In this document: positions 9,307 through 27,991 of the stretch, one piece after another | Position numbering within the stretch: the first letter of the stretch is position 1 | Layout: every line of letters starts with the position of its first letter | Origin: Photorhabdus heterorhabditis | GTDB lineage: Bacteria; Pseudomonadota; Gammaproteobacteria; Enterobacterales; Enterobacteriaceae | DNA length: 64,000 nucleotides | NCBI RefSeq assembly: GCF_018448905.1 | Contig: NZ_RCWA01000009.1 | Span: 86,273 to 150,272, forward strand | Direction: 5' to 3' | The notes under the pieces: generated by a model | What the model was told of the DNA's origin: nothing | What the model saw: the letters and a program-made list of their open reading frames with translations, nothing else | Databases searched by the model: none | Program-made: the position numbers and the translations under genes

Positions 9307-9720
9307 TCAGTTTTTGGGATAACGAGTTTCAAGTTCCTGCACTTGCCCTTTATTTAAGGTGGTGAAACCGTATGGTAATAATGTCAGATATAACCGGGCA
9401 GTATCTTCCAATTCTTCCGCATTGAAAAAAGCTTGCCGTAAAGTTTTGCCACCGACAACAGGTCCGTGGTTAGAAAGCAGAATTGGATGCATGGCAACTT
9501 CTTTCGTGGGTTTGTCGCCAGATAGCCAGTTACCCTCTATATCCAGCTTGCTAAGACGATCAGCTTGCAAGTCGCCAAAACTGGAGTTGGTTGGCGTGAT
9601 GATAATTGTGCCATCATCCAGTTTGGCACTGATATTACCTGCACCGCCACTGCGATAACCTCGGTAAAACATTGAACGAGCCCATTCTACTAATTCTGTT
9701 CGTAGCGCCTGTTCACTCAT
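9307..9720 (-). pseudogene. Class II aldolase pseudogene (ygbL/otnC-like), internal deletion
   Basis: The N-terminal part (ELVEWARSMFYRGYRSGGAGNIS, PTNSSFGD, KPTKEVAMH) jumps directly to LLSNHGPVVGGKTLRQAFFNAEELE. The central section with the zinc-binding His-x-His motif is missing, leaving about 137 residues where about 210 are expected. It should be inactive. It follows directly the damaged kinase gene with overlapping reading, as in intact ygbKL/otnKC operons for four-carbon sugar acids. Confidence 0.8.
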
Positions 9721-10603
9721 GAAACATCTCCTGAGCATGCAGGAAAAAATTAATGCTAGCTTCTGATACTGAGCCACTTGTTTGTTGGTCATTACGGAGC
9801 AACTGCCGGAAAGGATCACGGTACGTCTATTCTGAGCAGGGGGTGTTGCACCTTCCGGCTGAGGTGGTGACAATAATTTTCCGGTATTTGTACTGGCAAG
9901 TGCGGCACCAAGGCCAGAACCCCCGGTTACTAATGTCAGTTCTGACACAGCACTGGCAATAGGTAGTAGATCATTCATGGACATGGCATCTACTACTGCG
10001 TAGCGAATGCCTTGTTGTTGTAATTTATTTAGCTGCTTGCGGATTGCTTGCTCTCCCTGATGAACACATGTCAGATCTACCAGACCTGTTTTTCCCTGGG
10101 CCTGTTGCTCCATCAGGCGTATTAGATTAGCGTCTTTCATGGGTGTTATTGGGGGGTGTTGCATACCACTTTTATTGACCAGTTGCCCGTTAACAAACAG
10201 ATGTCCATGCACAACGGTACGCCCATTAACCGGCAGTGCAGGGCAGATCAGCGTGATATCTGCGTTTAGTTCCCCCATCAGAGCATCTGTTACTGGCCCG
10301 ATATTACCCTTGCTGGTGGAATCAAATGTTGAGCAGTATTTGAAGAATATTCGCTGACAGCCTGCTTCTTGGCGTAACCAGCGGCAGGATTTTAGTGTTT
10401 AGTGAGTTGTTCACCGCTTCATCTACCGGGAAAGAGCGGCTTTTTAGGCTGATAACAATGGCATCAATATTTTGTGGGACGACTGTATTTTCATCAGGTG
10501 CAACCAGTAACTGAACAACCCGCCAGCCGCTTTGCACCATAAAACTTGCGATATCGGTTGCGCCGGTAAAGTCATCGGCAATAACACCCAATTTAATGGT
10601 CAT
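9720..10603 (-). pseudogene. Four-carbon acid sugar kinase pseudogene (ygbK/otnK-like)
   Basis: The start (10603) encodes KLGVIADDFTGATDIASF, the DUF1537 kinase N terminus. Near 10370 the frame is lost; the continuation (QRIFFKYCSTFDSTSKGNIG) is in another frame and joins the segment from 10278 (GELNADITLICPALPVNGRT). It ends early at about residue 300, where the C-terminal ATP-binding half is deleted and only the last codons remain in a different frame before the aldolase start. At least one frameshift and one large deletion are present. Confidence 0.82.
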
Positions 10604-10971
10604 AATTCTTTCTCCGGTAAAGTGATACCTTTAAAAGTTTTGATAACTGCGCTGTCATCCCATTGACCAAAACCTTCGTTTATATTGGCGGCAGAATGAT
10701 CAGGGAAATGGCAAGCCAGAATATAAGAGATATCCGTGATGACATCTTCCAGTGTGTAGGTAAAGAATATTTTCCTGGATTTAAAATACCCAAGTATAAG
10801 AATGAAGTTCACCCTGGAGTTAACAGACCAACCTTGCGGTATTATCTGATGTTCCGTATCGGATAAGGTGAAATAGTATTCTCGTTCCTCCAAAGTAAAT
10901 CGAGGCAGGCCAAAATAGTCCTGAATTTCAGGTTGAGTCAGTATAGTCAGGCGCTTTTTATTGGTATTCAT
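10600..10971 (-). pseudogene. N-terminal fragment of Tn3-family transposase (DUF4158)
   Basis: A 123-residue open frame resembling only the N terminus of Tn3-type TnpA: LTQPEIQDYFGLPRFTLEEREYYFTLS, then NFILILGYFKSRKIFF. Complete transposases are near 1000 residues. The frame ends where it overlaps the ygbK start by four bases, so the rest has been lost or displaced. It marks past transposon activity at the border of the decayed block. Confidence 0.6.
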
Positions 10972-11188: not shown

Positions 11189-11729
11189 GATCTAATTATT
11201 TAATGTATAATCTTGATTATTAAGATTAAATATATTGTCTGGTGTGTAGTTCTAATTGGCAATATTATATTTTAATTTATGGTGTTTACGTGTAATTAAT
11301 TAATTATGACGTGAATCACGATATTGAAAATTAGATTATTAATTTATTGATTTTTTTGTATGGTTTGTATTTTTATACATAGTTTAAAATAAATTATAGA
11401 TTGAGAAATTAAAAAATCAAACGAGATAATACATCTTCTATTAAGAAGCAGAATGCCAAATGTTAATATTTTTCAAATCTTACGATTTAATTTAAGTTAA
11501 ACTTAAAAATAGTGTAACACCTTGTATTAAGTGAAAGCCTATAGCTATAACTGAGTTTAAGGACTGAGTGTAGTAGTGCTATTGGTTATTTAACTTAGTA
11601 AACCGGTGGTAATTCACATAGGATATTCTATGTAAATGAAAGAGAGACATATCCCTTATAGCTTAACGATACCTATGGATTTTTCGCTGGATTAATATCA
11701 CTTCTTATTTGAAAAGGAGATTACTCATC
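11189..11729 (+). promoter_or_regulatory. AT-rich leader upstream of the aminocyclitol operon
   Basis: About 540 bp with no credible ORF and very high A+T, more extreme than the flanking genes. The operon promoter must lie here or further upstream, but I cannot single out a -10/-35 pair. AT-rich leaders of this kind are often bound by H-NS-like silencers, which is inference. AAGGAG at about 11714-11719 is the ribosome-binding site for the first gene. Confidence 0.4.
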
Positions 11730-12995
11730 GTGTCTAAACTGGCAATACATGGTGGCTCTTCCATTCGAACAATGTCTTGGCCTGGGTGGCCTACAAGTTC
11801 TCCCGAAACTGTAGATAATCTACTTTCTGTTTTAAATAGTCAGCGTTGGTCAATAAGTGGACCATACCGTGGGGTACCTTCTTTTGAACAGCGTTTTGCT
11901 GAAGCTTATGCACGTTACACGAATGCTAATTATTGTGTTCCTGCTTCCAGTGGTACTGCCAGCTTGACTATGGCTTTAGAGGCAGTAGGGGTCGGAGCGG
12001 GTGATGAAGTCATTGTACCTGGTTTATCTTGGGTCGCTTCAGCATCAGCTGTTCTTAATATTAATGCTATTCCAATGCTAACCGACGTGAATCCTCAGAC
12101 AGGGTGCTTAGATCCAAATGCGGTTGAGGAAGCAATTACTTCTCGCTGTCGTGCGATGACAGTTGTACACCTCGGTTCTGCGGTTGCAGATCTGAATGCC
12201 TTAATGCATATTGCAGAAAAAAATAATTTGCCACTCATTGAAGATTGCTCTCAAGCACACGGTGCTCGTTTTGCTGGTCAACATGTGGGGACATTTGGTA
12301 TTGCTGGAACGTTCAGCATGCAACATAGTAAGCTGTTGACCAGTGGAGAAGGTGGAGCGGTACTAACTCAAGATGAGCAAATTGCTAGACGATTAGCCCA
12401 TCTACGCGCCGATGGACGTACATTAAGCAGTGTACCACCACCGTTGGATCATATGGAGTTATTAGAAACTGCTGAGTTAATGGGTTCGAACTATTGCTTG
12501 TCTGAATTTCATGCCGCAATTTTGTTAGCTCAATTAGAAAAACTTGATACCGAGAATGCTATCCGGCGCTGTAATGCTGAATATTTGGATGAGCTGATGC
12601 TGCAAATTGGCTGTTTTCCTCAGCAAACCACTCTGGGTACCACTGAACGTGTCTATTATAGCTATGTCATTGGATTACCTGAATCTGTCTTAGAGAAGGT
12701 TTCAGTAGAAAAACTGGCAGAAGCCCTGTCAGCAGAGCTGAATTTACCTTGTAAGCCTATGTATGCCGCATTAAATCAATGTACGTTATACCAACCCGAG
12801 AGTCGGCGGCGTTTCGCATTAGGAAAAGACTTTCAGTCATCCGTTCAGCCGCAGCGTTTTAGTCTGCCAATAGCGGAGGTATTCTCCCATAGCCACATTG
12901 CCTTGCCGCATCATTTTTTACTTGCAGAAGAAACTGACATGCTTGATGTCCAGCGTGCTCTGGAGAAGGTAATGAGCCATGCCGAGCATCTGTGA
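11730..12995 (+). CDS. btrS: L-glutamine:2-deoxy-scyllo-inosose aminotransferase (BtrS-like)
   Basis: A 421-residue PLP enzyme of the DegT/StrS (sugar aminotransferase) family. It closely follows Bacillus circulans BtrS: RWSISGPYRG, PASSGTASLTMALEA, DEVIVPGLSWVASASAVLN, EDCSQAHGA, the Schiff-base Lys201 in QHSKLLTSGEGG, and SNYCLSEFHAAILLAQLE with NAIRR. BtrS converts DOI to 2-deoxy-scyllo-inosamine (DOIA) and later amino-DOI to 2-deoxystreptamine. Start is GTG 11730 behind AAGGAG; the upstream in-frame TTG at 11709 precedes that site and is unlikely. It is the first gene of the operon whose last gene is DOI synthase, which supports the specific substrate. Confidence 0.88.
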   Translation: MSKLAIHGGSSIRTMSWPGWPTSSPETVDNLLSVLNSQRWSISGPYRGVPSFEQRFAEAYARYTNANYCVPASSGTASLTMALEAVGVGAGDEVIVPGLSWVASASAVLNINAIPMLTDVNPQTGCLDPNAVEEAITSRCRAMTVVHLGSAVADLNALMHIAEKNNLPLIEDCSQAHGARFAGQHVGTFGIAGTFSMQHSKLLTSGEGGAVLTQDEQIARRLAHLRADGRTLSSVPPPLDHMELLETAELMGSNYCLSEFHAAILLAQLEKLDTENAIRRCNAEYLDELMLQIGCFPQQTTLGTTERVYYSYVIGLPESVLEKVSVEKLAEALSAELNLPCKPMYAALNQCTLYQPESRRRFALGKDFQSSVQPQRFSLPIAEVFSHSHIALPHHFLLAEETDMLDVQRALEKVMSHAEHL

Positions 12996-13016
12996 ATCTA
13001 AAAGGTCAAAACTATT

Positions 13017-13670
13017 ATGACGTCAACACATTGCCATCGTTTTGTGTTCATCCGACACGCAGAAGCAACATGCAATCTACAGGATGACCATGTGTTAATC
13101 AGTTCAGTTTTGCCTGATTCACCACTGACGGAAATGGGCCAGCAACAAGCACAATTATTAGCAGATAATTTTCCCAAGGAGTTAATCGGAGACAAGATAT
13201 TTAGCAGCCCAATGGTCCGAACAATGCAAACGGCCAAATTTCTCACTGCACGGTACAATTTACCGTTGATATCTGATGAGCGTTTGGAAGAAGTGCGTAT
13301 AGCACCTTCACTGATACCGCCATTAAGTTTGCCGGAATGGGATGCAATGCTGGAAGAACGTTTGAATAGTCCCACAATTAAAGTAAGACCTGAAGTAGAA
13401 ACTGTTATTGAACAACGAGCACGAGTGACCGATTTCTTGCGTCAACGGCACCAACAGCGTGGCCGGGAAAAGGTCACTCTGATCGTTTCCCATGCATTCA
13501 CTATAGAGTTAGCAATGTTTGTGTTGCTAGGGCTGGAAATCTCCCTATTACAACGCTGGCATATGCGTATTAGTAATACAGCATTGCACGTTATAGAGAA
13601 TGAAGAGATAGGTGGAAAATCTAGGCTTGTTCTTGTTAACGCGAAAAATCATTTGAGATTATGGCTTTAA
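13017..13670 (+). CDS. Histidine phosphatase (phosphoglycerate-mutase-like)
   Basis: 217 residues with the histidine-phosphatase signature FIRHAEA near residue 13, SPMVRTMQTA, and the second catalytic His in VSHAFTIELAM. The family removes phosphate from small molecules through a phosphohistidine. In butirosin biosynthesis a phosphoribosyl group is added and then dephosphorylated by a separate phosphatase. With a phosphoribosyltransferase two genes downstream, the same two-step ribosylation is a reasonable inference, although this phosphatase need not be of the BtrP family. 21 bp separate it from the aminotransferase. Confidence 0.82.
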   Translation: MTSTHCHRFVFIRHAEATCNLQDDHVLISSVLPDSPLTEMGQQQAQLLADNFPKELIGDKIFSSPMVRTMQTAKFLTARYNLPLISDERLEEVRIAPSLIPPLSLPEWDAMLEERLNSPTIKVRPEVETVIEQRARVTDFLRQRHQQRGREKVTLIVSHAFTIELAMFVLLGLEISLLQRWHMRISNTALHVIENEEIGGKSRLVLVNAKNHLRLWL

Positions 13671-13689
13671 AGGTAAGAAGATAAAACGT

Positions 13690-16600
13690 ATGGCTGCAAA
13701 ATTTGAACGATTACAACAACTTTCCCGGCACACTGATTTTTCAGCATTGGTTCCACCTTTAGTGGGATTTGCGGCTGATAAAGCGCTTGCCATTGTAAGA
13801 CATTATCCGCAAGCAGATACTGCGCTGCTACGCACCCTCTACAGTCAGTACATCACTGAGCACCCCGACTGGATAAAACAGGTTGAGAAAGTTTGTGGTC
13901 CTGCCCCCTGGATTATTCGCAGTGCGGGTTTGGAGGATGGTGATACTTTCGTGAATGCTGGAGGCTATGCCAGTATCATCTGTCATTGTCCGGCAGATTT
14001 TAGTGATACGCTTTCTGCGGTAGCTTTCAGTGGATTTGAACTTCAATCCATTGAACAGCAACGGTTAAGTGATCCGGGTTATCAACCGCAGCCAATCACC
14101 TGTTTTGTTCAAAAATTGATTGAAGGTACGCCATCTACAGTGGGCGCTTTACAGGCTCCGTATCTGACAGACGATGCATGTCATGATTTAAATAAAATTA
14201 TCAATCAATTACATCAATATCTCTCTGAAATTGCGTTAGACACTGAGTGGGTTTTGGAAACGGATCATGGCCTGGTTTCCGTGACCGGATTGACTTTACA
14301 TGCCTCTGAAGGTATCCGGGGAGAACTGGCGTTCGGTTTTGGTTTTGCGTCGGCACAATCCCCCGGCTCAAGGGCAAACTCTGTGGCCTATCATTGGCCA
14401 ACGTTAGCTGCACCTTTGTGGTATGGCGCTCAATTATGTCAGGTTCGCGTGGATAAGATTTGGTTAGTACAGGCACGTCCCGCTCCGGGTTATGTACTTG
14501 AGCGTCAGGTTGAACAGTTAACCACTGAAGTGAAAGAAGAGCTGGCACGTAGTATGCAGGTGGTTCCCGTAACAACATTGCTGCATCCTGCAAAGCCTAA
14601 TTTAGGCGTTTTCCTTTCGGCATCCACATTAGACGATGCTTGGTCTCGTTATTTGCGTCTTCCTTTGCCAGTGCGATCCACTCTTGTGGCTGTCTTCGTT
14701 GAATCAGGCGTTGCCAGTGAACATGCTGGCATCATGTTCCGTCAACAAAAATTGCCTGTTTTTCTTACCCAGTTAACCAATATCCCCGCAGTTCCTTTGG
14801 TCATTATTAATAGTGTGGGAGAGCAAGCCTACTTTAGTGCGCAAAAACCACTTATCGAATTGGAAACGGAAACCATTGAATCGGTTAATTTGTCCGCTGC
14901 TGTACAGCATATTTTTGACGATAGAGAATCTCTGCCCACTACGGCGCTGTCTTCTCAAGATCTTTCGGATGTTTTGCAACGTGCGCTGGCTGGCTTACCG
15001 GTATTAGAGGAAAAAATCGGTGTTTCACTCAGGCAACGTACTCTTTTTCCAATGGACACATGGTTACAGCATGGTGACATTGTCCGAAGCCCAAGTTTAA
15101 CAGGTTGGCTCCTGGCACAAGTCGGTGAGAAAGCAATGACGCTCTACCCTGCTCATTGGTCAGCAACTGACGAAACAACAGATTATCTCTGTGCTTTCAG
15201 AGCCAAAACCGATCCGCAATCGACATTACCGCACTTATGTAAGGCTATCCCAACATTGGCAGACAAGATCAGGCAACTCAATGACCTGCGCCTGCTGATG
15301 TTATTTATCAAAGCCGAATCATGGATTGAGAGAATTCCCTCAATGCCATTGGCGCAATGGATTGATGTTGCGATAACGTCCCCAAATGGGGATGGGCGTC
15401 TGCTACTGGAGTGTCTACTTCATGTGCTTGCAGATACAGACATTATTCCCATTTATGAAGATGCAGACCGGATCAACATTTTACACGCGTTAACCCAGGC
15501 AGCAGGTTCTACACTTTCTGTTCACGAACTGTTTGAAGTTATCCATCATCGCCAATTGTCACCGATTGCACTGGCGAATCTGGTTTATGCGCCCGAAGCG
15601 TTTGCTGACTATGTGGCTTTCCTGTCTCCACTTAAGCGCTTTAAAGCAGCCGCAGCACTGGCAGGAGCGAGTGAAGCTGCTGATTTGCTACAAGCTACGG
15701 ATAGCCTGATGAAAGCGTTACATCAGGCGAAATTATTCACCTTGAGGGCACTTTGTCGCATAGATTTAGTGGATACTTACGATCAGGTACTCAAGGCGGT
15801 ATTAGCCGATGTGGTTGATAGACATGAGCTGATCACGTATCAAAATTATCTAGATCTGCTCAGCGATTGGATGGAGTTTGCTCAGCTATCAACGCTTTCT
15901 GCCACAGAAAAATCGGCATTATGCGTTTTCCAGGGATGGGTAGAACATGTTCGTCATAACCCTATGCCGGATACTTTTTTTCTTGAATTAAAAGAAGATG
16001 TTGTAGAAATCTTGGGGGATGATTTCTTACGTTGGCAGGTTTTAATGCCTGTCGCCGGTAATATGACACCGGAACAGCTACCGATAGAAAATGCTCACCA
16101 GTTACACAATCTATTGCATCAGTGGATGCTGGTTCGTTTCCGGGCTGAATCGGGGCCTGATCTACCTGCGCTTTTACATAAATTGATCAATATCGCTGAT
16201 GGTTTTGGTGATGCCCGCTCTTGCCTTTTAAGGTTAACTAATAACCTCTTTGAGATTTCTCTGCCCTTTGTCGTACACAAGGCCAGTTTCCTCTTTAATG
16301 AGAAGGAGTTGGTTGTTGAGTTCTGCGAGCTTCCGAATGCCCCGGAAGAGGAGATTGGTCGCTTATATGTCTTCGATGCATTGGCTTCACGTATTTCAGA
16401 ATGGAAACCACAATGGCAGATATCATCAAATCGGGTCTGCCAATTAGGCACTTGGACACTTTTCTTACGTTTAAAGCGCGCTGATGGCTTACATTGGCAG
16501 AGACAGGATCTCGAACAACTGGTGCTTTGGTTGCGGGTGCTATTCGATACTGCTTATGATTTCTCCTATGTGCCTAATGATGAAGCTTCTCATGTATATG

Positions 16601-17370
16601 ACATGCTGGGACATTCTCCCTGGAGTGATCTATTCCACGCTTATGTTAATTACCGGGCTGTGATTGATTTTTCTGTTCAGCGTATCACAGTTTATTCGTT
16701 GCCCTTTGCCTCAACGCTCGCTGCACTCTGTCTGAATGAATCTATACGTGATGAGGTCACCAGCGCTTACCTTGCTGGTTTTGACCATGCCTGGGATGCT
16801 TTTCACCGAATTATTGAGAAGCTGGAAAAAACAGAGGATGACCAAGAACAGTGGGAATGCCTTCACACCACCGCAGGGCAGATGGGATTACTCTTTTCAG
16901 CAGTATGGCCAGAGCAGACGTTGATGCGGATGGTACAAAAACCACTCTCCCGGGTTGGGGCTGAACGGATCGCAGTCAGCTTGTTACATCGTCGTGATTT
17001 GTCGGCTACATTGCAGCGGTTGGTTACTGCTCCAGAAAATGCCGGATTGCGTAATTTAGTTTTGCACCACGTTCCTGAAATCGCGGTAAATGCAGGTTCT
17101 GCTGCCTCAATCGCAGGTGAAATCGCGATTTGGCAAAGTCAGTTTAAACGCTGCAAAGAGTACTTGCTTGCCTATCATGCAAATGTACTCTCTGAGGGCC
17201 AATGTCAACAATTTGTCAGACAACTTAGTCTTATCCCTTATGGCATCACAGAGGAAATTGAAACGTATATTCAACGTGCTCTGGCTCCCATAGCCACAGA
17301 GGGGAAAGGCCGTTTTAAATTGTCTGAAGTTGATCCGATTGCGATTATTAGCACTATGCGGACAAAATGA
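13690..17370 (+). CDS. Giant PEP-synthase-like protein with phosphohistidine domain
   Basis: 1226 residues. The N terminus (about 20-280) resembles the PEP synthase/pyruvate phosphate dikinase ATP-grasp domain: WIIRSAGLEDGDTFVNAGGY around residue 75, and the ATP-site-like HKIWLVQARPAP equivalent (KIWLVQARPAPG near 260). Residues about 300-375 look like the mobile swivelling domain with the phosphorylatable His in SEHAGIMFRQQKLPVF (about residue 346). The remaining 800 or more residues show no domain I recognise and look helical. Dikinase-type enzymes such as rifampin phosphotransferase put the ATP beta-phosphate on a small-molecule hydroxyl, so phosphorylation of the aminocyclitol (biosynthesis or self-protection) is one hypothesis. 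No PEP-synthase TIM barrel is seen. Confidence 0.6.
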   Translation: MAAKFERLQQLSRHTDFSALVPPLVGFAADKALAIVRHYPQADTALLRTLYSQYITEHPDWIKQVEKVCGPAPWIIRSAGLEDGDTFVNAGGYASIICHCPADFSDTLSAVAFSGFELQSIEQQRLSDPGYQPQPITCFVQKLIEGTPSTVGALQAPYLTDDACHDLNKIINQLHQYLSEIALDTEWVLETDHGLVSVTGLTLHASEGIRGELAFGFGFASAQSPGSRANSVAYHWPTLAAPLWYGAQLCQVRVDKIWLVQARPAPGYVLERQVEQLTTEVKEELARSMQVVPVTTLLHPAKPNLGVFLSASTLDDAWSRYLRLPLPVRSTLVAVFVESGVASEHAGIMFRQQKLPVFLTQLTNIPAVPLVIINSVGEQAYFSAQKPLIELETETIESVNLSAAVQHIFDDRESLPTTALSSQDLSDVLQRALAGLPVLEEKIGVSLRQRTLFPMDTWLQHGDIVRSPSLTGWLLAQVGEKAMTLYPAHWSATDETTDYLCAFRAKTDPQSTLPHLCKAIPTLADKIRQLNDLRLLMLFIKAESWIERIPSMPLAQWIDVAITSPNGDGRLLLECLLHVLADTDIIPIYEDADRINILHALTQAAGSTLSVHELFEVIHHRQLSPIALANLVYAPEAFADYVAFLSPLKRFKAAAALAGASEAADLLQATDSLMKALHQAKLFTLRALCRIDLVDTYDQVLKAVLADVVDRHELITYQNYLDLLSDWMEFAQLSTLSATEKSALCVFQGWVEHVRHNPMPDTFFLELKEDVVEILGDDFLRWQVLMPVAGNMTPEQLPIENAHQLHNLLHQWMLVRFRAESGPDLPALLHKLINIADGFGDARSCLLRLTNNLFEISLPFVVHKASFLFNEKELVVEFCELPNAPEEEIGRLYVFDALASRISEWKPQWQISSNRVCQLGTWTLFLRLKRADGLHWQRQDLEQLVLWLRVLFDTAYDFSYVPNDEASHVYDMLGHSPWSDLFHAYVNYRAVIDFSVQRITVYSLPFASTLAALCLNESIRDEVTSAYLAGFDHAWDAFHRIIEKLEKTEDDQEQWECLHTTAGQMGLLFSAVWPEQTLMRMVQKPLSRVGAERIAVSLLHRRDLSATLQRLVTAPENAGLRNLVLHHVPEIAVNAGSAASIAGEIAIWQSQFKRCKEYLLAYHANVLSEGQCQQFVRQLSLIPYGITEEIETYIQRALAPIATEGKGRFKLSEVDPIAIISTMRTK

Positions 17371-17377
17371 GGGCAGA

Positions 17378-19291
17378 ATGACTAAATACCTAGGCAAGGT
17401 TGCTAGAATACAGATTACCCCCTCAGAGTTAGTGGCGAAGTTATTCGCCACTGAATATGCTCAAAACGGTGATGGTTATGTATCAGCCTGCGCTCTGGGA
17501 CAAATATGGAGCGACCTAAGTCTTCTTACTGAAGTCAGTCAACAGCCGTTATCTGTCCGCCGTCAGGCCAAATGTTCTGCTACACATGCGCAACAGGCCG
17601 CTTTGTCTATCGCTGGTGGTCATAAAATCACGGCTGAAACGGAGTGTTCTCAACAAATAGGCCTTGTATTGCAAGGTCAATTTTCTCCCTGGATGGATCT
17701 ACTGACCCGTATTTTGGCACTCCCCTTGCCAGAGTGTTATGGCTATGATTTAGGGGATACCGAAGTCTGTGTGGATGATGCAATCCGTTTTGCCCGCCAG
17801 TTTGCCTCCGGGCGTTCCATCGTGGTTGTCGGTCTCCGCAGTGGTGGGAGTTTTCTTATTCCACGTTGGGTTGCAGGATTAACTCAGATTAATGGTGTGC
17901 CCCCTGCATGGCTAACACTGCGCCCTTTAAGGCATATTAACGCCTATTGTCAGTACCATCCTTCAGAGTTGGATACTCTATTTCGTCTTCTTGACGCACA
18001 ATCTGAACGTCCAGACGTCGTGATTGTTGATGATCAACCCGATACAGGCAATACCGTTGAAAAACTTGCGGAATGGTTAGCCTTCAAAGCAGAAAACATC
18101 TGGTTTGCCAGCATTGGGCATGTGAGAAAAATCACAACATCAGCTTCATGGTCAACCGTATTTGTGCGATCACCACTGATGACACGTGAACGGCGTTCAC
18201 TCTGGCAACTGTTGTTAAAAAATGATCACCGCCATTTTCTTTCTACATTGATTTCTGCGATACCAGCGTCTGATTTACTGAATTCGACAATAATAAATAA
18301 CGCGGATACACAGATCTTTATCCATTGCCCAACAATGGAAAAAAGATATGGCTTGGGTGAGGCTTGGTTGCCTTGGAACTCGCCAGCAATGGAAAAATAT
18401 GCAAGAAGGTTGATTAACCCCAAAAAAACTCCCTTGTTAGTCACGGATAAACATGAAACGCCATTGTTGCACCTGAGATTTATTGGGGAAAGCACCTATG
18501 GACTCACGGAATTCAATCGGGTGAAGCAAGCCAATACTGCCCATCCTGAGGCGTGGTTTCTTGATGGTTATCATATTGCTCAACATCTTCCGGGATTGCG
18601 GCCATTACGGGATCTTATGGCTGAAACACCTCATGAAAATCATCAAGTTTGGCTTACACAGTGCAACGCTGTTATTCAGTCTGTCAGCCAATCACCATTA
18701 ATAGATATTGTCGGCCAGCTACCTCAGATTCCAATAGGAGCAGCCATTCGTAATGCATGGGAACGCCTGCAACACAAAATGGGTAAAAGTAAATTGAGTG
18801 AACACAAATTACCTGACTTACCCATTTGGCTCGATTCACTCAATATTCCTCCTTTTGCAGGAAGTACCCGACCAATACGCTCTTCCCTTAGCTATGCCTT
18901 TGGTGATTGGCACTGGCAAGTTGACAAGGATGGGCATCTCTACCGTTTTCATCAGGAGGCTAACTGGGGAGGGATAAGCTGGCCAGAATTGGAGATAGCT
19001 GTTTTTCTGTTGGTATATCAACTGCCGCCCGCCACATTACAGCTGATGTACAACAGTAACCAGACAGAGAATGATAATTTACCAGTGATATTCACTTCCT
19101 TACCTGTTGCGCTGCTTTTGCTGCTTGACGGTTTCCGCCGGGAAGTACGTCAATTTAGCCCTATAGGTAAGATGCGATTATGTGAAGATCTCACCTTGTT
19201 ATTCCAAACTTTTATCCAGTACCACAACTTGATTATTGAAAGCATCGCGAATATGCAACCGACTGAAATATCGGGGAGTGTCTATGAGTAA
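17378..19291 (+). CDS. Two-domain protein with PRPP-type phosphoribosyltransferase domain
   Basis: 637 residues starting at ATG 17378 (GAGGG just upstream, 7 bp after the previous stop). Residues about 120-270 form a type I phosphoribosyltransferase core: SIVVVGLRSGGSFLIPRW (about 146-163) and the PRPP loop VVIVDDQPDTGNTVEKL (about 212-228). BtrL in butirosin synthesis uses PRPP to phosphoribosylate neamine, so ribosylation of an aminocyclitol here is plausible. The N-terminal 110 and C-terminal 350 residues are not recognised; the C-terminal half has TDKHETPLLHLRFIGESTYG and WFLDGYHIAQHLPG. The next gene starts inside its stop region (8-bp overlap). Confidence 0.72.
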   Translation: MTKYLGKVARIQITPSELVAKLFATEYAQNGDGYVSACALGQIWSDLSLLTEVSQQPLSVRRQAKCSATHAQQAALSIAGGHKITAETECSQQIGLVLQGQFSPWMDLLTRILALPLPECYGYDLGDTEVCVDDAIRFARQFASGRSIVVVGLRSGGSFLIPRWVAGLTQINGVPPAWLTLRPLRHINAYCQYHPSELDTLFRLLDAQSERPDVVIVDDQPDTGNTVEKLAEWLAFKAENIWFASIGHVRKITTSASWSTVFVRSPLMTRERRSLWQLLLKNDHRHFLSTLISAIPASDLLNSTIINNADTQIFIHCPTMEKRYGLGEAWLPWNSPAMEKYARRLINPKKTPLLVTDKHETPLLHLRFIGESTYGLTEFNRVKQANTAHPEAWFLDGYHIAQHLPGLRPLRDLMAETPHENHQVWLTQCNAVIQSVSQSPLIDIVGQLPQIPIGAAIRNAWERLQHKMGKSKLSEHKLPDLPIWLDSLNIPPFAGSTRPIRSSLSYAFGDWHWQVDKDGHLYRFHQEANWGGISWPELEIAVFLLVYQLPPATLQLMYNSNQTENDNLPVIFTSLPVALLLLLDGFRREVRQFSPIGKMRLCEDLTLLFQTFIQYHNLIIESIANMQPTEISGSVYE

Positions 19292-20534
19292 ACCTGAAAA
19301 AATCGCCTCTGCTGTTGGCGTACCGGCACCAAACTTACGTGCTCTATCTGCAAGTGGTGCTATCGTCAGACTGAGTGATGGAAAAGACTATATTGACCTG
19401 ATGAATGGCAAAGGTAGCATCACGTTGGGACATCATCATCCGGTAGTCACAGAAGCAATAATCTCCAGTTTAAATAATGAACAGGGGTCTTCCACCTGCT
19501 GGTCAGAGCCTTTTGAGGCTCTTGCAGAAATCATTGTTGCTGATAGTGGTATCCCAAATGGGCAAGTTGCTTTTTTCAGCTCAGGAACTGAAGCCTGCCG
19601 TGCTGTTGTCCAGTGTGCACGGAAGATAACAGGCAAAAAAATCATCGCCAGCGCAGGTTACCACGGCTGGGGGGATTTATGGGCTTCGCCTTCCCATTTT
19701 TTGCAGCCAAATGAAAGCGGCATTATCGATTTCTACTTCATCCCTGAATTACTGGCTGATGTGTTAGAAAACTATCATGGCGAAGTCGCAATGGTGATGA
19801 TTTCTCCCGACTATGTACATCTCAAACCAGAAACATTAAAAAAAATAGCTCATCTTGCCCGTGAATATGGCGTTCTATTTTGCAGTGATGAAGTCAAAAA
19901 TGGCTATCGTTCAGTGACTGGTTCTGCGTTACCACAGGTTATTGGCGAACAGGCTGATTTTTATACCTTTTCCAAAGGACTATGCAATGGGCAACGCTTA
20001 TCCTGCCTCGTCGGGCCAACTGAAATGATGCAAAAAACTAAACATATGACCTATACCGCCTATTTTGACACAGTGCCTATTGTTGCTGCTTTAGCCACAT
20101 TGAAATATATGCGTGACGAACAAGGCTACAAACGTCTGGTCACGTGTGGGTCAATGCTGGCAAACACATTACGCACACTGATTGCGCAGGCAGAGTTGCC
20201 AATAAAAGTCATGGGGGATGGGCCATTACTGCAATTTATCTGTGCAACGCCAGAATTGGATGAGGCTTTCTATACTGCTTGCGGTAAACACGGCCTGTTA
20301 CTGTATAAGTTTGATAATCAGGCTGTTTCGCTGGCAACTGAAGCCGTTTTAACGAAATTGGAGATCCACTTCAAACAGGTATTTTCAGAACTTGCTCTAC
20401 ACTTCTCTACGCAGCACCAAATCCATGTCTCTATCGAGCGACAAATGGAAGCTGCATTCAATATGATCGACGGTGCCAGTGATATTATGCCTGCTGCCGA
20501 TGCTATCCATTGGTTACAAAGGTATGCCTTATGA
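19284..20534 (+). CDS. Class III PLP aminotransferase (glutamate-semialdehyde-mutase-like)
   Basis: 416 residues of the class III aminotransferase family. Visible are GSITLGHHHP, FFSSGTEACRAVVQCARKITGK, AGYHGWGD, the Asp motif FCSDEVKNGYR and the PLP lysine in FYTFSKGLCNGQRLS (about residue 231). In butirosin and neomycin pathways a class III enzyme (BtrB/NeoN) aminates the 6' carbon of the sugar, and this may be a counterpart. Start ATG 19284 overlaps the previous stop by 8 bp; the longer frame from 19236 is unlikely. It overlaps the next gene by 4 bp (ATGA). Confidence 0.83.
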   Translation: MSKPEKIASAVGVPAPNLRALSASGAIVRLSDGKDYIDLMNGKGSITLGHHHPVVTEAIISSLNNEQGSSTCWSEPFEALAEIIVADSGIPNGQVAFFSSGTEACRAVVQCARKITGKKIIASAGYHGWGDLWASPSHFLQPNESGIIDFYFIPELLADVLENYHGEVAMVMISPDYVHLKPETLKKIAHLAREYGVLFCSDEVKNGYRSVTGSALPQVIGEQADFYTFSKGLCNGQRLSCLVGPTEMMQKTKHMTYTAYFDTVPIVAALATLKYMRDEQGYKRLVTCGSMLANTLRTLIAQAELPIKVMGDGPLLQFICATPELDEAFYTACGKHGLLLYKFDNQAVSLATEAVLTKLEIHFKQVFSELALHFSTQHQIHVSIERQMEAAFNMIDGASDIMPAADAIHWLQRYAL

Positions 20535-21304
20535 GCAGAATAAAAGACTGGTATGGTAAACGTCTGACCTTAATTGCTCCACATCCCGATGATATTGCTT
20601 ATTCGATAGGTGGTTTCGTCTCACAACTGGCGGCTGTATCCACATTAGAGGTTGTGACCGTATTTACCCAAAGTCGATGGGCGCTCCCTAAATCCCTGCG
20701 TGATGCGGGTTCCGCCGTTATCAGTAAAGTACGAGTAAAAGAAGAGCAGACTTTTTGTCAAAATTTTAAGATGAAGTTATACCCTCTTGGGCTCTCAGAT
20801 TCCAGCCTGTCCGGCTATGACGATGGGAGTGAGCGCCAATTGCAATTTACTCATGGACAACTTACTAATGACATACGAACTTCAATCGTATTGGAGAAGC
20901 TACAGCAGGTCTTGGCAGGGTCCAGCCCTGATGTTGTGATTGCGCCAGCCGCCATTGGTCATCATATCGACCATCAGATTGTCCATCACGCCATTTGTTC
21001 ACTACATAATCATCAATGGCAACTTGCTTTTTACGAAGACCTGCCCTATGCAGCTGAATTTACACTGGATATTTTGGAAAAACAGTTGGCAGAGCGAAAA
21101 TTCAGCATACTAGAAGCCATCAGTATCGATCAAACATTAGCAGATAAATATGCAGCACTATCTAATTATGCCAGCCAAACCGATCAGGAAACGATTGATG
21201 CAATTATTGTCCATGCACAACGTCTGGCACAAACATGTTTCCATACCGGGCAAGCAGTTTACCATGCAGAAAGATTTTGGGAGAAATCATGTCAATATCA
21301 GTAG
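20531..21304 (+). CDS. PIG-L/LmbE-family N-deacetylase
   Basis: 257 residues with the PIG-L zinc motif LIAPHPDD near residue 12 and the second metal motif IGHHIDHQIVHHA. Family members remove N-acetyl groups from GlcNAc-type sugars; BtrD/NeoD deacetylates 2'-N-acetylparomamine. Its presence suggests an N-acetylhexosamine or N-acetylated intermediate, although no glycosyltransferase gene is visible in this operon. ATGA overlap with the aminotransferase upstream. Confidence 0.85.
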   Translation: MSRIKDWYGKRLTLIAPHPDDIAYSIGGFVSQLAAVSTLEVVTVFTQSRWALPKSLRDAGSAVISKVRVKEEQTFCQNFKMKLYPLGLSDSSLSGYDDGSERQLQFTHGQLTNDIRTSIVLEKLQQVLAGSSPDVVIAPAAIGHHIDHQIVHHAICSLHNHQWQLAFYEDLPYAAEFTLDILEKQLAERKFSILEAISIDQTLADKYAALSNYASQTDQETIDAIIVHAQRLAQTCFHTGQAVYHAERFWEKSCQYQ

Positions 21305-21564
21305 GTTATATTCGTCAATTAATTATCAAAATCGCCTGTGAGACAACGGGAGATGACGCAGAAGAACTCATCAAGCGAGGATGGTTAGAGATCCCTGCAC
21401 GGGATGCCATTGAATTTATGGTACGTCTGGAAGCACTCCTTGACTGCACTCTGGGTTGGTCGAAATACGAACATTTGTCAATGGGAATTAATAACCTCGC
21501 AGAAATAATAAACAAGAAGCTTAATGCACAATCATCTGATGAACCAATGCCATTATCACCTTAA
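21289..21564 (+). CDS. Acyl-carrier-protein-like small protein lacking the attachment Ser
   Basis: 91 residues, start ATG 21289 overlapping the deacetylase end by 16 bp. Size and pattern resemble an acyl carrier protein: helix 1 VGYIRQLIIKIACETTG, a helix 2 like ARDAIEFMVRLEALLD, and a final segment NNLAEIINKK. In carrier proteins the pattern is D-S-L-D-A-V-E; here the aligned residues are P-A-R-D-A-I-E, so the serine that takes phosphopantetheine is alanine. It would be a structural or adaptor relic or an unrelated helical protein. The similarity is judged by eye only. Confidence 0.5.
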   Translation: MSISVGYIRQLIIKIACETTGDDAEELIKRGWLEIPARDAIEFMVRLEALLDCTLGWSKYEHLSMGINNLAEIINKKLNAQSSDEPMPLSP

Positions 21565-21578
21565 TCATAGGTAAAAAA

Positions 21579-22769
21579 ATGATAAATACCGAAAAAAATG
21601 GTATTGATATACCTTTTAATAACAATAAGTTACATGAAAAAAGCAATGTTTCATCCTGTTTACTTCAAGATAATGCGCATTCTATGCATAAAATTGAGTT
21701 GCGTTTTGAAGATGTTGCTTATCCTTTCTGGATAGGGAGCCACTGCACAGAGGAAATTTCGGCGCATTTAGCTGAGATGTCGGCGTCTTCTCTGCATATC
21801 ATTACTGACGATACCGTAAACCAGCTTCATGCTGCTCCTTTCGTACAACGGCTAACTCTAAAAACAAAGGTGCCGGTTTGGGTCTGGTCAATTCCAGAAG
21901 GAGAAGCAAATAAATCACTCAATACATTGGATTATTTGGCAAATCAATTGCTTAATACGGATGTTGATCGCAAAAGTGTTATTGTCGCGATGGGAGGGGG
22001 GGTTATCGGCAATATAGCAGGGCTGCTGGCCGCGCTACTATTTCGTGGTATTCGTTTCGTGCATATTCCCACTAGCCTGATTGCAATGAGCGATTCTGTT
22101 ATTTCTCTTAAACAAGCGGTGAACATGCCACAAGGCAAAAATCTGATGGGTTGTTTTCATACGCCAGAAGCGGTTTTTGCTGATACTGCTTTCTTGCTGA
22201 CGTTGCCGTCCCAACACTTGCGATCTGGATTATGCGAAATCATTAAAAATGTGCTGATATTAGAAACCGAAAATATCCCATTTTTAACTAGGACACTGAA
22301 TGCAGAAGCGGATTACGACGAACAAACACTTGCATGCATCGTTCAGGCGGGTGCTTTGACCAAACAAAAAGTCATGGTTAACGATAAGCGGGAGAGACAT
22401 CATGCCCTTGTATTCGAATATGGTCACACTGTAGGGCACGCTATCGAATTAAGCTGTAATGGAAGACTGACTCATGGTGAATCTGTGGCTCTTGGCATGA
22501 TAGTCGCAGCTGAAGTTTCTCACACCCTTGGTTTATTGACATCACAAGCACGTGATATGCACTACCGCCTGATTCACCTTAACGGCGTCGATATTAAGGC
22601 ACCTGTAGGAACAACCCTGGAAGCCATTATGCAGATACTGCAATCTGATAATAAACGTGGTTATCTGCGCGCGAAGCCCAATGAAATTCCGATGATTCTG
22701 TTAAATGAATTGGGAACCCCCCTTTGGAGTGGTGAAGGGCATCCTTTAACGCTTGTGCCGACCCTGTAA
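21579..22769 (+). CDS. btrC: 2-deoxy-scyllo-inosose synthase
   Basis: DOI synthase cyclises glucose 6-phosphate to DOI with NAD and a divalent metal, the committed step to 2-deoxystreptamine. The 396-residue protein belongs to the dehydroquinate synthase superfamily but matches DOI synthases (BtrC/NeoC): VAMGGGVIGNIAGLLAALLFRGI, IPTSLIAMSDSVISLKQAVN, GKNLMGCF, ELVKN-like CEIIKNVLILE, FEYGHTVGHAIEL, LTHGESVALGM and DNKRGYL. It has an N-terminal extension of about 35 residues; ATG 21684 is an alternative start. The last codon and stop (CTG TAA) coincide with the outer end of an IS256 element, so the original C terminus may have been clipped. Confidence 0.88.
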   Translation: MINTEKNGIDIPFNNNKLHEKSNVSSCLLQDNAHSMHKIELRFEDVAYPFWIGSHCTEEISAHLAEMSASSLHIITDDTVNQLHAAPFVQRLTLKTKVPVWVWSIPEGEANKSLNTLDYLANQLLNTDVDRKSVIVAMGGGVIGNIAGLLAALLFRGIRFVHIPTSLIAMSDSVISLKQAVNMPQGKNLMGCFHTPEAVFADTAFLLTLPSQHLRSGLCEIIKNVLILETENIPFLTRTLNAEADYDEQTLACIVQAGALTKQKVMVNDKRERHHALVFEYGHTVGHAIELSCNGRLTHGESVALGMIVAAEVSHTLGLLTSQARDMHYRLIHLNGVDIKAPVGTTLEAIMQILQSDNKRGYLRAKPNEIPMILLNELGTPLWSGEGHPLTLVPTL

Positions 22770-24068
22770 ATAATTCTGTGTATTTGCCTTTCATTAAATG
22801 TGGCCGTCCAGGCGGTCACCGAACTCAATAATAAAACGACTCATCGCTTGTTTCCAGTTTTGGATCGGCATGCTCCATTTTTTTGAAGCTGATTCAATCG
22901 CCAAATAGATAACTTTACGCACAGAATCTTCCGTTGGAAATACCTTACGTTTTTTAATCGCATGGCGGAGCACACTGTTGAGGGATTCTATTGCATTCGT
23001 CGTATAAATGGCTTTACGGATATCTTCGGGATAGGCAAAGAACGTGTTTAGATTCTCCCAATGGGCGTACCAACTCTTGCTGATTTGTGGATATTTGTCA
23101 TCCCACGCTTGAGCAAATTTATCGAGTGCTATCAATGCTGATGCTTCTGTTGCTGCTCGATAAATTGTTTTCAGTCCGGCGGTTACCGCTTTGTAATCTT
23201 TCCATGAGACATATTTTAAGCTATTACGCACCATATGGATGATGCATAACTGGATCTGAGTTTGTGGATAAACGCTATTTATCGCGTCAGGAAAACCTTT
23301 TAGACCATCAACACACGCAATGAGAATGTCCTGAACACCCCGATTTTTCAGCTCAGTAAGCACCGATAACCAAAATTTAGCCCCTTCATTTTCAGCTATC
23401 CACATACCGAGAAGTTCTTTATGACCGTCAGTATTAATCGCAAGTGCAAGAAAAACTGACGGGTTGATAACACTACCGTCGTGTCGCACTTTCACAACAA
23501 TACAGTCAAGATAAACAATGGGATACAGTGACTCCAGGGGGCGATTTTGCCATTCTTGAACTTGTTCTTTTACTGCATCTGTGACTTTGGAAATCAGTGT
23601 TGGAGAGACATCCGCATCGTACATCTCTTTGAACGTTGCCACGATTTCACGCGTTGTCATGCCTTTAGCATAGAGGGCGAGAATTTGGCTATCCATCTGC
23701 GTAATACGAGTTTGATTCTTCTTGATTAATTGAGGTTCAAAGCTGCCTTCACGATCCCGTGGCGTGGTCAATTCAAACTCGCCATCATCGGTCAGTAACG
23801 TTTTAGAGGAATAGCCATTACGAGTATTAGAGCCTGATTTAGCGGCATTTTTTTCATGCCCTAAATGCTCAGTCAGCTCTGCATTTAATGCAGTTTCGAC
23901 GGTAAGTTTAGTCAGCATTCGGGTGAACTGATTAAGGTCAGCTTCCGTTTTGATGCCTTTTGCAAATTCAGCTGCAAGTGCTTTAAGTTTTTTCTCGTCC
24001 ATAATATGCCTGCTTTGTTGTTGGATGTAACATATCAAAAGCAGGCAAATACACAATTTAAATTACAG
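22764..24068. mobile_element. IS256-family insertion sequence
   Basis: Imperfect terminal inverted repeats of 26 bp, ctgtaaataattctgtgt plus atttgcct at the left and the inverse of ctgtaatttaaattgtgt plus atttgcct at the right (24043-24068), flank one transposase gene. No clear 8-9 bp target duplication is visible, so the outer limits are uncertain by a few bases. The left end overlaps the stop of the DOI synthase gene. Confidence 0.8.
22794..24002 (-). CDS. IS256-family transposase (MULE/DDE type)
   Basis: 402 residues from ATG 24002 (the frame is open to 24056, but MDEKKLKAL is the normal N terminus). The family signatures are present: NTRNGYSSKTL, the first Asp in VYLDCIVVKVR, the second in IACVDGLKGFPDAI, QLCIIHMVRNSLKYV, and the Glu in TNAIESLNSVLR. 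The ORF is full length without stops, so the element may still be active. Confidence 0.92.
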   Translation of the reverse strand: MDEKKLKALAAEFAKGIKTEADLNQFTRMLTKLTVETALNAELTEHLGHEKNAAKSGSNTRNGYSSKTLLTDDGEFELTTPRDREGSFEPQLIKKNQTRITQMDSQILALYAKGMTTREIVATFKEMYDADVSPTLISKVTDAVKEQVQEWQNRPLESLYPIVYLDCIVVKVRHDGSVINPSVFLALAINTDGHKELLGMWIAENEGAKFWLSVLTELKNRGVQDILIACVDGLKGFPDAINSVYPQTQIQLCIIHMVRNSLKYVSWKDYKAVTAGLKTIYRAATEASALIALDKFAQAWDDKYPQISKSWYAHWENLNTFFAYPEDIRKAIYTTNAIESLNSVLRHAIKKRKVFPTEDSVRKVIYLAIESASKKWSMPIQNWKQAMSRFIIEFGDRLDGHI

Positions 24069-27185: not shown

Positions 27186-27991
27186 TATGCGAACTCCTGT
27201 AAATAGACATATTGTATAAACTGTGTAACGTGACGAATAACGCTCTGAGGATCTTGAGTAATATAAAAATGGTCGCCGGCAACTTCCTGGCAGCAATACG
27301 AAAGGTTTTGCGAGTCATCTGCAAGCCAATGATGCCACTGCTGAACTTCCATAGCAGAAGCTTCTTGGTCTTCGTTGCCATAAAGCAATAGCGTTGGTGT
27401 TTGCAGTTTTACTGAATCAGGTTGAATAACATGGTGATAGTGCTCTGTAGCAAAAAAGTCAGCTCGTAGCATGGGTAAGAACAACTCAAGTAATCCGGGA
27501 TCTTCTCGTAACATCGGACTGCAACCGCCGATATCAATCAGCTGTTCAATGAATTCATGATCAGGCAATCCGCTCAGTTGGCGGTGGGATTGAAGATGGG
27601 GTGCATGACACCCCGAAAGTACTAGTGCTTTGAGAGAACAATTATGCTGTTCAAGGCGTTGGCAAGTTTCAAAGGCGACCTGAGCGCCCATGCTATGACC
27701 AAACAGTATCAAGTTCTCTCTCTGTGCAGGAGTGAATGATACGATCAGATCGGCAAGTGATTGTGCTAATGGCTCAATCCGGGTGGCAGCATGTTCATTC
27801 ATACGACTGTCATGTCCGGGGTAAATCACCAGTGAAGCCGCGATATCTGAATTTTCCAATGTGAACCATTGGCGGAATGCACTGCTACTGCCCCCGGCAA
27901 AGGGGCAGATTAGCAATGTGTATTTCGGTTTGTCGTGAGTCGTCAGGCATGGACGAATCATCGGGTGTGTAGGGAGTAGCCACGTCATCAC
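27185..27991 (-). CDS. ybtT: Type II thioesterase (YbtT-like)
   Basis: 268 residues of the alpha/beta-hydrolase thioesterase II family: LLICPFAGGSSSAFRQW, the nucleophile motif FGHSMGAQVAFE, YGNEDQEAS and the catalytic His in AGDHFYI. Such enzymes clear misprimed or stalled acyl groups from carrier domains of the siderophore synthetases. It overlaps ybtU by one base upstream and the ligase-synthase fusion by one base downstream. Confidence 0.9.
   Translation of the reverse strand: MMTWLLPTHPMIRPCLTTHDKPKYTLLICPFAGGSSSAFRQWFTLENSDIAASLVIYPGHDSRMNEHAATRIEPLAQSLADLIVSFTPAQRENLILFGHSMGAQVAFETCQRLEQHNCSLKALVLSGCHAPHLQSHRQLSGLPDHEFIEQLIDIGGCSPMLREDPGLLELFLPMLRADFFATEHYHHVIQPDSVKLQTPTLLLYGNEDQEASAMEVQQWHHWLADDSQNLSYCCQEVAGDHFYITQDPQSVIRHVTQFIQYVYLQEFA

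Follow-up and report, generated by a model that had tools for sequence, protein, structure and literature searches.

Does the aminocyclitol operon of an insect pathogen code for a whole pathway, or is it a piece of something larger? The question is raised by eight genes on the forward strand of Photorhabdus heterorhabditis that fill positions 11,730 to 22,769 of a 64,000-nucleotide stretch (the window; contig NZ_RCWA01000009.1, positions 86,273 to 150,272), where neighbouring genes overlap or sit no more than about 20 bp apart. The operon begins with a 2-deoxy-scyllo-inosose (DOI) aminotransferase and ends with a DOI synthase. The initial annotation had placed these eight closely spaced genes correctly, and had read them as a self-contained operon for a phosphoribosylated or ribosylated DOI-derived aminocyclitol. 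When the locus is compared among Photorhabdus and Xenorhabdus, as that annotation had proposed, the operon proves to match the 5′ half of a longer cluster and its synthase gene lacks its end; nine more genes stand in intact relatives, among them those for a BtrN homologue and glycosyltransferases, and these point to a neomycin-family aminoglycoside instead of a self-contained operon. We conclude that the operon is very probably the 5′ half of a neomycin-type (4,5-disubstituted 2-deoxystreptamine) aminoglycoside cluster whose 3′ half has been lost beside an IS256 element.

The loss can be read at the end of the synthase gene. Homology to the synthases of relatives, which are 410 aa long, stops at position 22760, 16 codons short of their end, so that their last 16 residues are missing from the window synthase; 16 unrelated bases follow, and then an element of the IS256 family bounded by 13-bp inverted repeats (TGTGTATTTGCCT/AGGCAAATACACA). 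The 8 bp on its two flanks differ (AATAATTC versus ATTTAAAT), which indicates that there is no target duplication. An 8.1-kb query made of the missing 3′ half found only 182 bp at 69% identity in the whole assembly of the window strain, the GMC oxidoreductase of the complete clusters had no match in that genome, and the first glycosyltransferase (GT1) and the BtrN-like protein of Sodalis found only 35% and 31% matches there. It could be argued that the truncation is an artefact of assembly at the insertion sequence and that the strain has the full cluster, in view of the draft state of the genome (226 contigs) and of the fact that such elements are common break points. However, the assembly has a stated completeness of 100, the 3′-half and GMC queries gave the results just described, and unrelated sequence lies ahead of the element; moreover, the next closest IS256 copy in the genome is 84% identical and hardly confusable with it, making a false join between identical repeats unlikely. 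We therefore regard an artefact as very improbable.

The window copy thus holds 8 of the 17 genes of the complete cluster and lacks the full gene set of the neomycin family. All eight frames are open, which makes the 3′ loss look recent. As the strain has neither the dehydrogenase nor GT1, it could reach at most 2-deoxy-scyllo-inosamine, if the shortened synthase works, and its PIG-L deacetylase, class III aminotransferase, phosphoribosyltransferase (PRTase) and phosphatase would be left without their proposed substrates unless intermediates were supplied.

Complete, reduced and broken clusters in relatives

Gene content, homology, breaks and co-occurrence were observed directly in the window strain and the related genomes. 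In Photorhabdus sp. CRCIA-P01 these eight genes lead on to eight more in the same direction, with a convergent alkaline phosphatase gene at the end. The genes after the synthase encode a radical SAM protein of 303 aa (rSAM1), GT1 (family GT4), the BtrN-like protein, a second glycosyltransferase (GT2), the GMC oxidoreductase, an ABC ATPase and two ABC-2 permeases. The BtrN-like product is a radical SAM/SPASM protein of 235 aa that matches BtrN with 205 bits and 98 of 235 residues identical (42%); the dehydrogenase predicted to complete 2-deoxystreptamine is thus present in the complete clusters as the BtrN type, not the NeoE type.

The gene for the PRTase (g4) occurs in 7 of 59 genomes, the window's own included, and in 6 of 13 Photorhabdus. 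A scan of genome contigs for two conserved peptides returned 76 candidate stretches, seven of which encode the PRTase; these lie in P. bodei, Photorhabdus sp. CRCIA-P01, P. tasmaniensis, P. australis, P. thracensis, X. szentirmaii and X. beddingii. A further carrier, one of the 7 in the set of 59, was named from plasmid records as the megaplasmid pHS1 of Sodalis praecaptivus, and plasmid searches with g3 and g4 found Sodalis only; its protein has both peptides yet is absent from the scan output, so the scan is not exhaustive. Together with the window's genome there are nine carriers, and PRTase identity is 85-98% in the seven genomes named by the scan and 53-54% in Sodalis. The small DUF6137 protein was found across 369 genomes of the class in the window's own copy only.

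The integrity of the carriers was judged by tblastn with the CRCIA-P01 proteins. All 17 genes are open in four genomes (CRCIA-P01, P. tasmaniensis, P. australis and X. szentirmaii), stops within the last six codons being disregarded. In X. beddingii the reading frames of the aminotransferase and of GT1 are broken and the BtrN-like gene contains a stop, the check there covering the cluster up to the permeases. In P. thracensis g3 is interrupted by an insertion, the reading frame of the class III aminotransferase is broken and rSAM1 stops at residue 143; a search of the 12 kb beyond it found no other cluster gene, and the genome has no GMC. The insertion itself is about 1.2 kb long and contains an open frame of 369 aa (L032:5220-6448). 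P. bodei has a deletion in the aminotransferase gene, loses homology inside the DUF6137 gene and has no GMC in its genome. The idea that this cluster is merely cut by a contig edge was dropped, homology stopping 459 bases before the contig end. The 3′ half has therefore been lost in three carriers (the window strain, P. thracensis and P. bodei) at three different points. A tree of three proteins places P. thracensis with X. beddingii (support 1.0), apart from the other Photorhabdus, which suggests transfer between the two genera.

The Sodalis cluster is a reduced one, with 12 genes, all open, but without GMC, class III aminotransferase, GT2, rSAM1 and alkaline phosphatase. Elsewhere in that genome, where only GMC and phosphatase were sought, the megaplasmid has a GMC match of 33% identity, and the phosphatase is an ordinary one on the chromosome.

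These comparisons bear on the proposal that the eight genes of the window are a complete pathway to a ribosylated or phosphoribosylated DOI-derived aminocyclitol. The eight open frames are in keeping with it, and a ribosylated inosamine would need no enzymes beyond DOI synthase, DOI aminotransferase, PRTase and phosphatase. Nevertheless, the window synthase is without its natural end, dehydrogenase and glycosyltransferases stand directly behind the synthase in five relatives, the class III aminotransferase and PIG-L protein have no evident substrate in the absence of the sugar added by GT1, and P. bodei and P. thracensis, which also lack the 3′ half, show broken genes. We consider a complete eight-gene pathway improbable, and prefer the reading of a truncated neomycin-type cluster.

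A second broken remnant was seen on contig C6 of the window genome (L013:5248-5899), made up of pieces of an aminotransferase gene (74% identity to that of the window) and of a synthase gene (88%). It precedes genes that look conjugation-like by eye and is nearest, among four compared, to X. szentirmaii (76% and 91%). In the window, the IS256 element is followed on the opposite strand by a yersiniabactin-like siderophore cluster (about 24249-52677), in which a frame of 1015 aa (24249-27296, minus strand) fuses an AMP-ligase domain and a chorismate-binding domain of the salicylate synthase type. Upstream of the operon there are two scar-like frames on the minus strand, one joining a sugar-binding domain to a class II aldolase (9307-10278) and the other a Tn3-transposase-like N-terminus to the tail of an L-threonate dehydrogenase (10600-10971).

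Table 1. Operon genes and insertion element of the window, and additional alkaline phosphatase genes beside clusters in relatives
Feature	Position	Strand	Evidence or remark
DOI aminotransferase (BtrS/RbmB/NeoS type)	11730..12995	+	Best PDB match RbmB (5w70); start taken as GTG (11730), TTG at 11709 being an alternative
Histidine phosphatase	13017..13670	+	Pfam His_Phos_1, 1.9e-27
g3, 1226 aa, function not assigned by family	13690..17370	+	NeoA slot by size only
g4, probable type I PRTase with long C-terminal extension (putative NeoL/BtrL role)	17378..19291	+	PRPP motif VVIVDDQPDTGNTV
Class III aminotransferase, aminoglycoside 6′-aminotransferase type (putative NeoB role)	19284..20534	+	PDB matches
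PIG-L family deacetylase (putative NeoD/BtrD role)	20531..21304	+	Pfam PIG-L, 3.4e-14
DUF6137 small protein	21289..21564	+	Pfam, 8.7e-38; NeoX slot guessed
DOI synthase, shortened	21579..22769	+	BtrC match; homology ends at 22760
IS256-family element	22777-24055	-	NCBIfam transpos_IS256, 1.1e-126; transposase frame 22794-24056
Extra alkaline phosphatase beside cluster	L034:775-2268	+	
Extra alkaline phosphatase beside cluster	L033:2027-3466	-	
Extra alkaline phosphatase beside cluster	L071:4156-5577	-	

Enzymes, proposed pathway and product

Gene families were called with Pfam and NCBIfam searches, and the DOI synthase and DOI aminotransferase recognized by the initial annotation are upheld by PDB matches. 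The window synthase matches BtrC with 244 bits, versus 166 bits for the best of the other 15 PDB matches, a dehydroquinate (DHQ) synthase. K141 and E243 of BtrC, which we take to be active-site residues, are retained as K178 and E280, and the synthase carries the BtrC contexts FEYGHT (with E243) and KQ where the DHQ synthase 3okf has LNLGHT and KT. It might instead be a DHQ synthase paralogue, in a cluster for some other cyclitol or saccharide: the top NCBIfam model is aroB (268 bits, under its cut-off of 305), and identity to BtrC (37%, 126/339) is close to that to 3okf (34%, 102/298). Against this stand the lead of BtrC over the other PDB matches by at least 78 bits, the residue contexts, the adjoining RbmB-type aminotransferase, the BtrN homologue in relatives, and a second gene of the DHQ/DOI synthase family elsewhere in the window genome, 32% identical and presumably aroB. 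A DHQ synthase paralogue is, in our judgement, the least probable of the alternatives.

The aminotransferase of the DegT/StrS family had been labelled BtrS-like, and as a DOI aminotransferase the label holds, although the protein is closer to RbmB (5w70; 56% identity, 234/417; 506 bits) than to BtrS (292 bits). In two regions viewed around its actinomycete plasmid matches (Streptomyces and Pseudonocardia), no DOI synthase is annotated. At the level of sequence, the complete clusters have the predicted DOI synthase and DOI aminotransferase of the neomycin family. The top 8 of 21 PDB matches of the class III aminotransferase are all aminoglycoside enzymes, 6cbk (named neamine transaminase) reaching 218 bits, and the best other matches are a mycosubtilin synthase domain (82 bits) and glutamate-1-semialdehyde aminomutase (79 bits). 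As it is closest to aminoglycoside 6′-aminotransferases, its expected substrate is a sugar ring, not the cyclitol. At the gene level, the pair for 6′-amination is thus present in the complete clusters, as this enzyme and, by family, the GMC oxidoreductase. The GT4-family GT1 and the PIG-L protein are there as candidates for the paromamine step.

The PRTase match of g4 is sub-threshold in Pfam (E 0.003), but the phosphoribosyl pyrophosphate (PRPP) motif is clear, with D219, D220, D223, T224, G225 and T227 invariant as far as Sodalis. The initial annotation had paired PRPP-dependent ribosylation with dephosphorylation, and such a pair, formed by g4 and the histidine phosphatase, is indeed probable; by analogy, the phosphatase is assigned the putative removal of the ribose 5-phosphate (NeoP/BtrP role). 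A role of g4 as a Ter-system (TRSP) protein was rejected, as no TRSP match was listed in Pfam at E values up to 10. The DUF6137 protein looks carrier-protein-like by eye, without the attachment serine in the alignment.

The large protein g3 has no Pfam or NCBIfam family at E 0.01, its sole Pfam match being PPDK_N at E 0.25, and the similarity of its N-terminus to PPDK_N is likewise not significant by hhalign. Its first 360 aa, however, contain ordered motifs of phosphoenolpyruvate (PEP) synthase (RS..ED, F..AG, EW, Q.RP and HA.I..R), unchanged down to Sodalis. The motif pattern matched only g3 orthologues and PpsA among 215 open frames of at least 400 codons, many of them repeats of one another, and none of 100,000 shuffles, in a test made post hoc with a pattern hand-fitted to g3 and PpsA that missed a second PPDK_N group; an earlier pattern, fitted to g3 alone, missed PpsA. 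Because the profile comparisons are not significant, g3 was rejected as a proven dikinase and the motifs remain a hint, by which g3 is a kinase candidate.

The neomycin family is characterized by paromamine, a ribose on C5, variable 6′- and 6‴-amination, a further glucosamine and 5‴-epimerization (PMC11405602). In Streptomyces fradiae the neo genes run E, S, C, M, Q, N, P, X, F, D, L, B and A, then R, G, H and I (PMC10991966). A table of mutations in the same article implies sizes of at least 640 residues for NeoL and at least 1241 for NeoA, and g4 (638 aa) and g3 (1226 aa) come near these minima (PMC10991966). Alignment to a solved relative backs the slots of NeoS, NeoC, the BtrN type and NeoB, and named residues that of NeoN. 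With the roles of individual neo genes partly assumed, the aminotransferase would correspond to NeoS, the synthase to NeoC, GT1 to NeoM, PIG-L to NeoD, GMC to NeoQ, the class III aminotransferase to NeoB, the PRTase to NeoL, the histidine phosphatase to NeoP, GT2 to NeoF, rSAM1 to NeoN, g3 to NeoA and, as a guess, DUF6137 to NeoX, the BtrN type replacing NeoE.

From this gene set we infer a pathway in which the synthase would convert glucose 6-phosphate to DOI, and DOI would become 2-deoxystreptamine by two rounds of the RbmB-type aminotransferase with the BtrN-type radical SAM dehydrogenase acting between them. GT1 would add N-acetylglucosamine and PIG-L would deacetylate it to give paromamine, and 6′-oxidation by GMC with amination by the class III aminotransferase would lead to neamine. 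Phosphoribosylation at C5 by the PRTase, followed by dephosphorylation, would give ribostamycin; GT2 may then add a fourth sugar, again deacetylated, oxidized and aminated, and a NeoN-like enzyme may epimerize C5‴ in Xenorhabdus. That Sodalis lacks the four genes assigned to 6-amination, the fourth ring and epimerization suggests that the assignment is modular, and predicts ribosyl-paromamine there.

The last step depends on rSAM1, compared with NeoN at 16 residues taken from PMC10991966, where Cys249 is named as the hydrogen donor. In CRCIA-P01, 9 of the 16 are identical at a constant offset of 10, over residues 26-251; in Xenorhabdus, 10 of 16 are identical as read from the alignment. The position of Cys249 is Ser in all three Photorhabdus rSAM1 proteins compared and Cys in the two compared from Xenorhabdus, which predicts that Xenorhabdus epimerizes and Photorhabdus does not. 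A viperin was rejected as the identity of rSAM1: among NCBIfam radical SAM models viperin came first, far under its cut-off, and PADLOC viperin models scored 36 and 26 bits, taken as general radical SAM similarity.

Several points weigh against a neomycin-type cluster. GT2 matches glycosyltransferase models below their cut-offs, and so does g4 its PRTase model in Pfam, a PDB profile search with g4 giving no relevant match. Neither did such a search with g3, whose comparison with PEP synthase (PpsA) was not significant by hhalign. The identity of the synthase to BtrC barely exceeds that to DHQ synthase. The slots of NeoA, NeoL, NeoX, NeoF, NeoM, NeoP, NeoQ and NeoD come from size, family or place, and direct comparison with neo, rbm and par was to PDB proteins. 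In the C-terminal part of rSAM1 the same offset gives three matches in seven and other offsets up to two, leaving the register less secure there, and Photorhabdus has Ser where NeoN needs Cys. A resistance gene of the expected family is also missing beside the clusters, as described below.

Some of these points leave room for the complete cluster making a different 2-deoxystreptamine compound, such as ribostamycin or a pseudotetrasaccharide whose fourth ring is not the one found in neomycin. The weak matches of GT2 leave its donor open, the Ser in the three Photorhabdus enzymes would fit such a product, and the Sodalis cluster is without GT2. On the other hand, every one of the 13 neo genes from E to A, as ordered in PMC10991966, has a candidate counterpart, with BtrN for NeoE and mostly by family, size or place, and the Cys is retained in both Xenorhabdus. 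A different compound is a serious possibility, if somewhat short of an even chance.

Export and self-protection

It seems that the complete clusters are accompanied by a phosphatase of their own. An ordinary alkaline phosphatase is present once in every one of the 13 Photorhabdus, in some of them interrupted by a stop, and a second is found only in the three with complete clusters, directly adjoining them (Table 1). The extra copies share about 68% identity with the ordinary phosphatase and 96% with each other, and their N-terminus is signal-peptide-like by eye. X. szentirmaii and X. beddingii have two alkaline phosphatases each, one of them adjoining the cluster, though at its opposite end in X. 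beddingii, and Sodalis has one. Of 16 genomes examined, 5 thus have the extra copy, and it is in these same five that the 3′ genes are seen.

The search for resistance genes covered the aminoglycoside phosphotransferase (APH) family; acetyltransferases and rRNA methylases lie outside it. No APH-family (aphA-like) match was found in the three Photorhabdus with complete clusters as far as their cluster contigs extend (two of these contigs are short), within 350 kb of the X. szentirmaii cluster or on the megaplasmid of Sodalis. About 44 kb from the broken cluster of P. thracensis there is an APH match, itself interrupted by a stop. This counts among the points against a neomycin-type cluster, given that aphA is called general to the neomycin family (PMC11405602), while the lividomycin and butirosin clusters are reported without aphA (PMC6804068).

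The scheme of protection that we propose is that the drug is phosphorylated inside the cell, g3 being the candidate kinase, that the ABC transporter would export the phosphorylated drug, and that the dedicated alkaline phosphatase probably removes the protective phosphate outside the cytoplasm. Streptomycin offers a precedent, its phosphorylated form being exported and activated outside. Taken as a whole, this leads to a wider and more speculative view: that insect-associated Enterobacterales have a third independently assembled neomycin-class pathway, in which g3, as a PEP-synthase-like kinase of the NeoA type, phosphorylates, the ABC transporter exports and a periplasmic phosphatase activates in a new scheme of protection, with a new fourth ring in Photorhabdus, whose NeoN-like enzyme, with Ser for the donor Cys, would no longer epimerize, and ribosyl-paromamine in Sodalis. 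We put it forward tentatively, holding it rather unlikely that all these parts are right together.

Relation to known clusters and significance

Among the closest known systems is neo of S. fradiae; the complete clusters have candidate enzymes of the same types, from 2-deoxystreptamine and paromamine through ribosylation and 6-amination to a second glycosylation and epimerization, together with proteins of the size of NeoA and NeoL and an ABC transporter, sequence comparison being limited to PDB entries. Unlike neo, they have a BtrN-type radical SAM protein for NeoE, no linked APH-family gene that we could find, a PhoA-like phosphatase and a different gene order; the NeoN donor Cys is Ser in Photorhabdus, and the window copy is without the 3′ half. 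They resemble rbm of S. ribosidificus in the aminotransferase, but the complete Photorhabdus and Xenorhabdus forms have a second glycosyltransferase and a NeoN-like enzyme. The likeness to btr of Bacillus circulans lies in the BtrC-like synthase and the BtrN-like dehydrogenase; in contrast to btr, no genes for the 4-amino-2-hydroxybutyrate (AHBA) side chain were recognized among the 17, without a gene-by-gene search, and the aminotransferase is nearer RbmB. The operon for 3′-amino-3′-deoxyguanosine (ADG) in P. luminescens is also a small-molecule antibiotic operon of Photorhabdus (PMC9239236), but it was rejected as the same locus, adgA-E being puromycin-like and unrelated.

Neomycin-family producers belong to Streptomyces, Micromonospora and Bacillus, and the clusters have been described from actinomycetes and Bacillus (PMC11405602). 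That such an operon is unusual for a Gram-negative bacterium agrees with the literature, since none of the literature matches listed, which mostly leave out subscription journals, describes a 2-deoxystreptamine cluster from Photorhabdus, Xenorhabdus or Sodalis. To our knowledge, the complete set of Photorhabdus and Xenorhabdus and the reduced set of Sodalis would be the first Gram-negative source. The locus had also been called undescribed, which stands as far as those literature matches go, except for antiSMASH "Amglyccycl" counts of one each for P. thracensis, P. tasmaniensis and P. australis and two for P. cinerea, which pass undiscussed in the section that gives them (PMC9491552), and for the automatic NCBI label of the Sodalis gene as 2-deoxy-scyllo-inosose synthase.

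We read the window locus as one decaying member of a Gram-negative branch of neomycin-type clusters that has apparently gone unreported, and it shows the cluster in the course of being lost. The branch would offer a natural series of pathway lengths for testing the roles of genes, including that of the large NeoA-sized protein, and its natural Cys/Ser pair makes the mechanism of the NeoN-like enzyme directly testable. It would also make one ask how a Gram-negative producer, with no phosphotransferase gene linked to the cluster, withstands the aminoglycoside that it makes.

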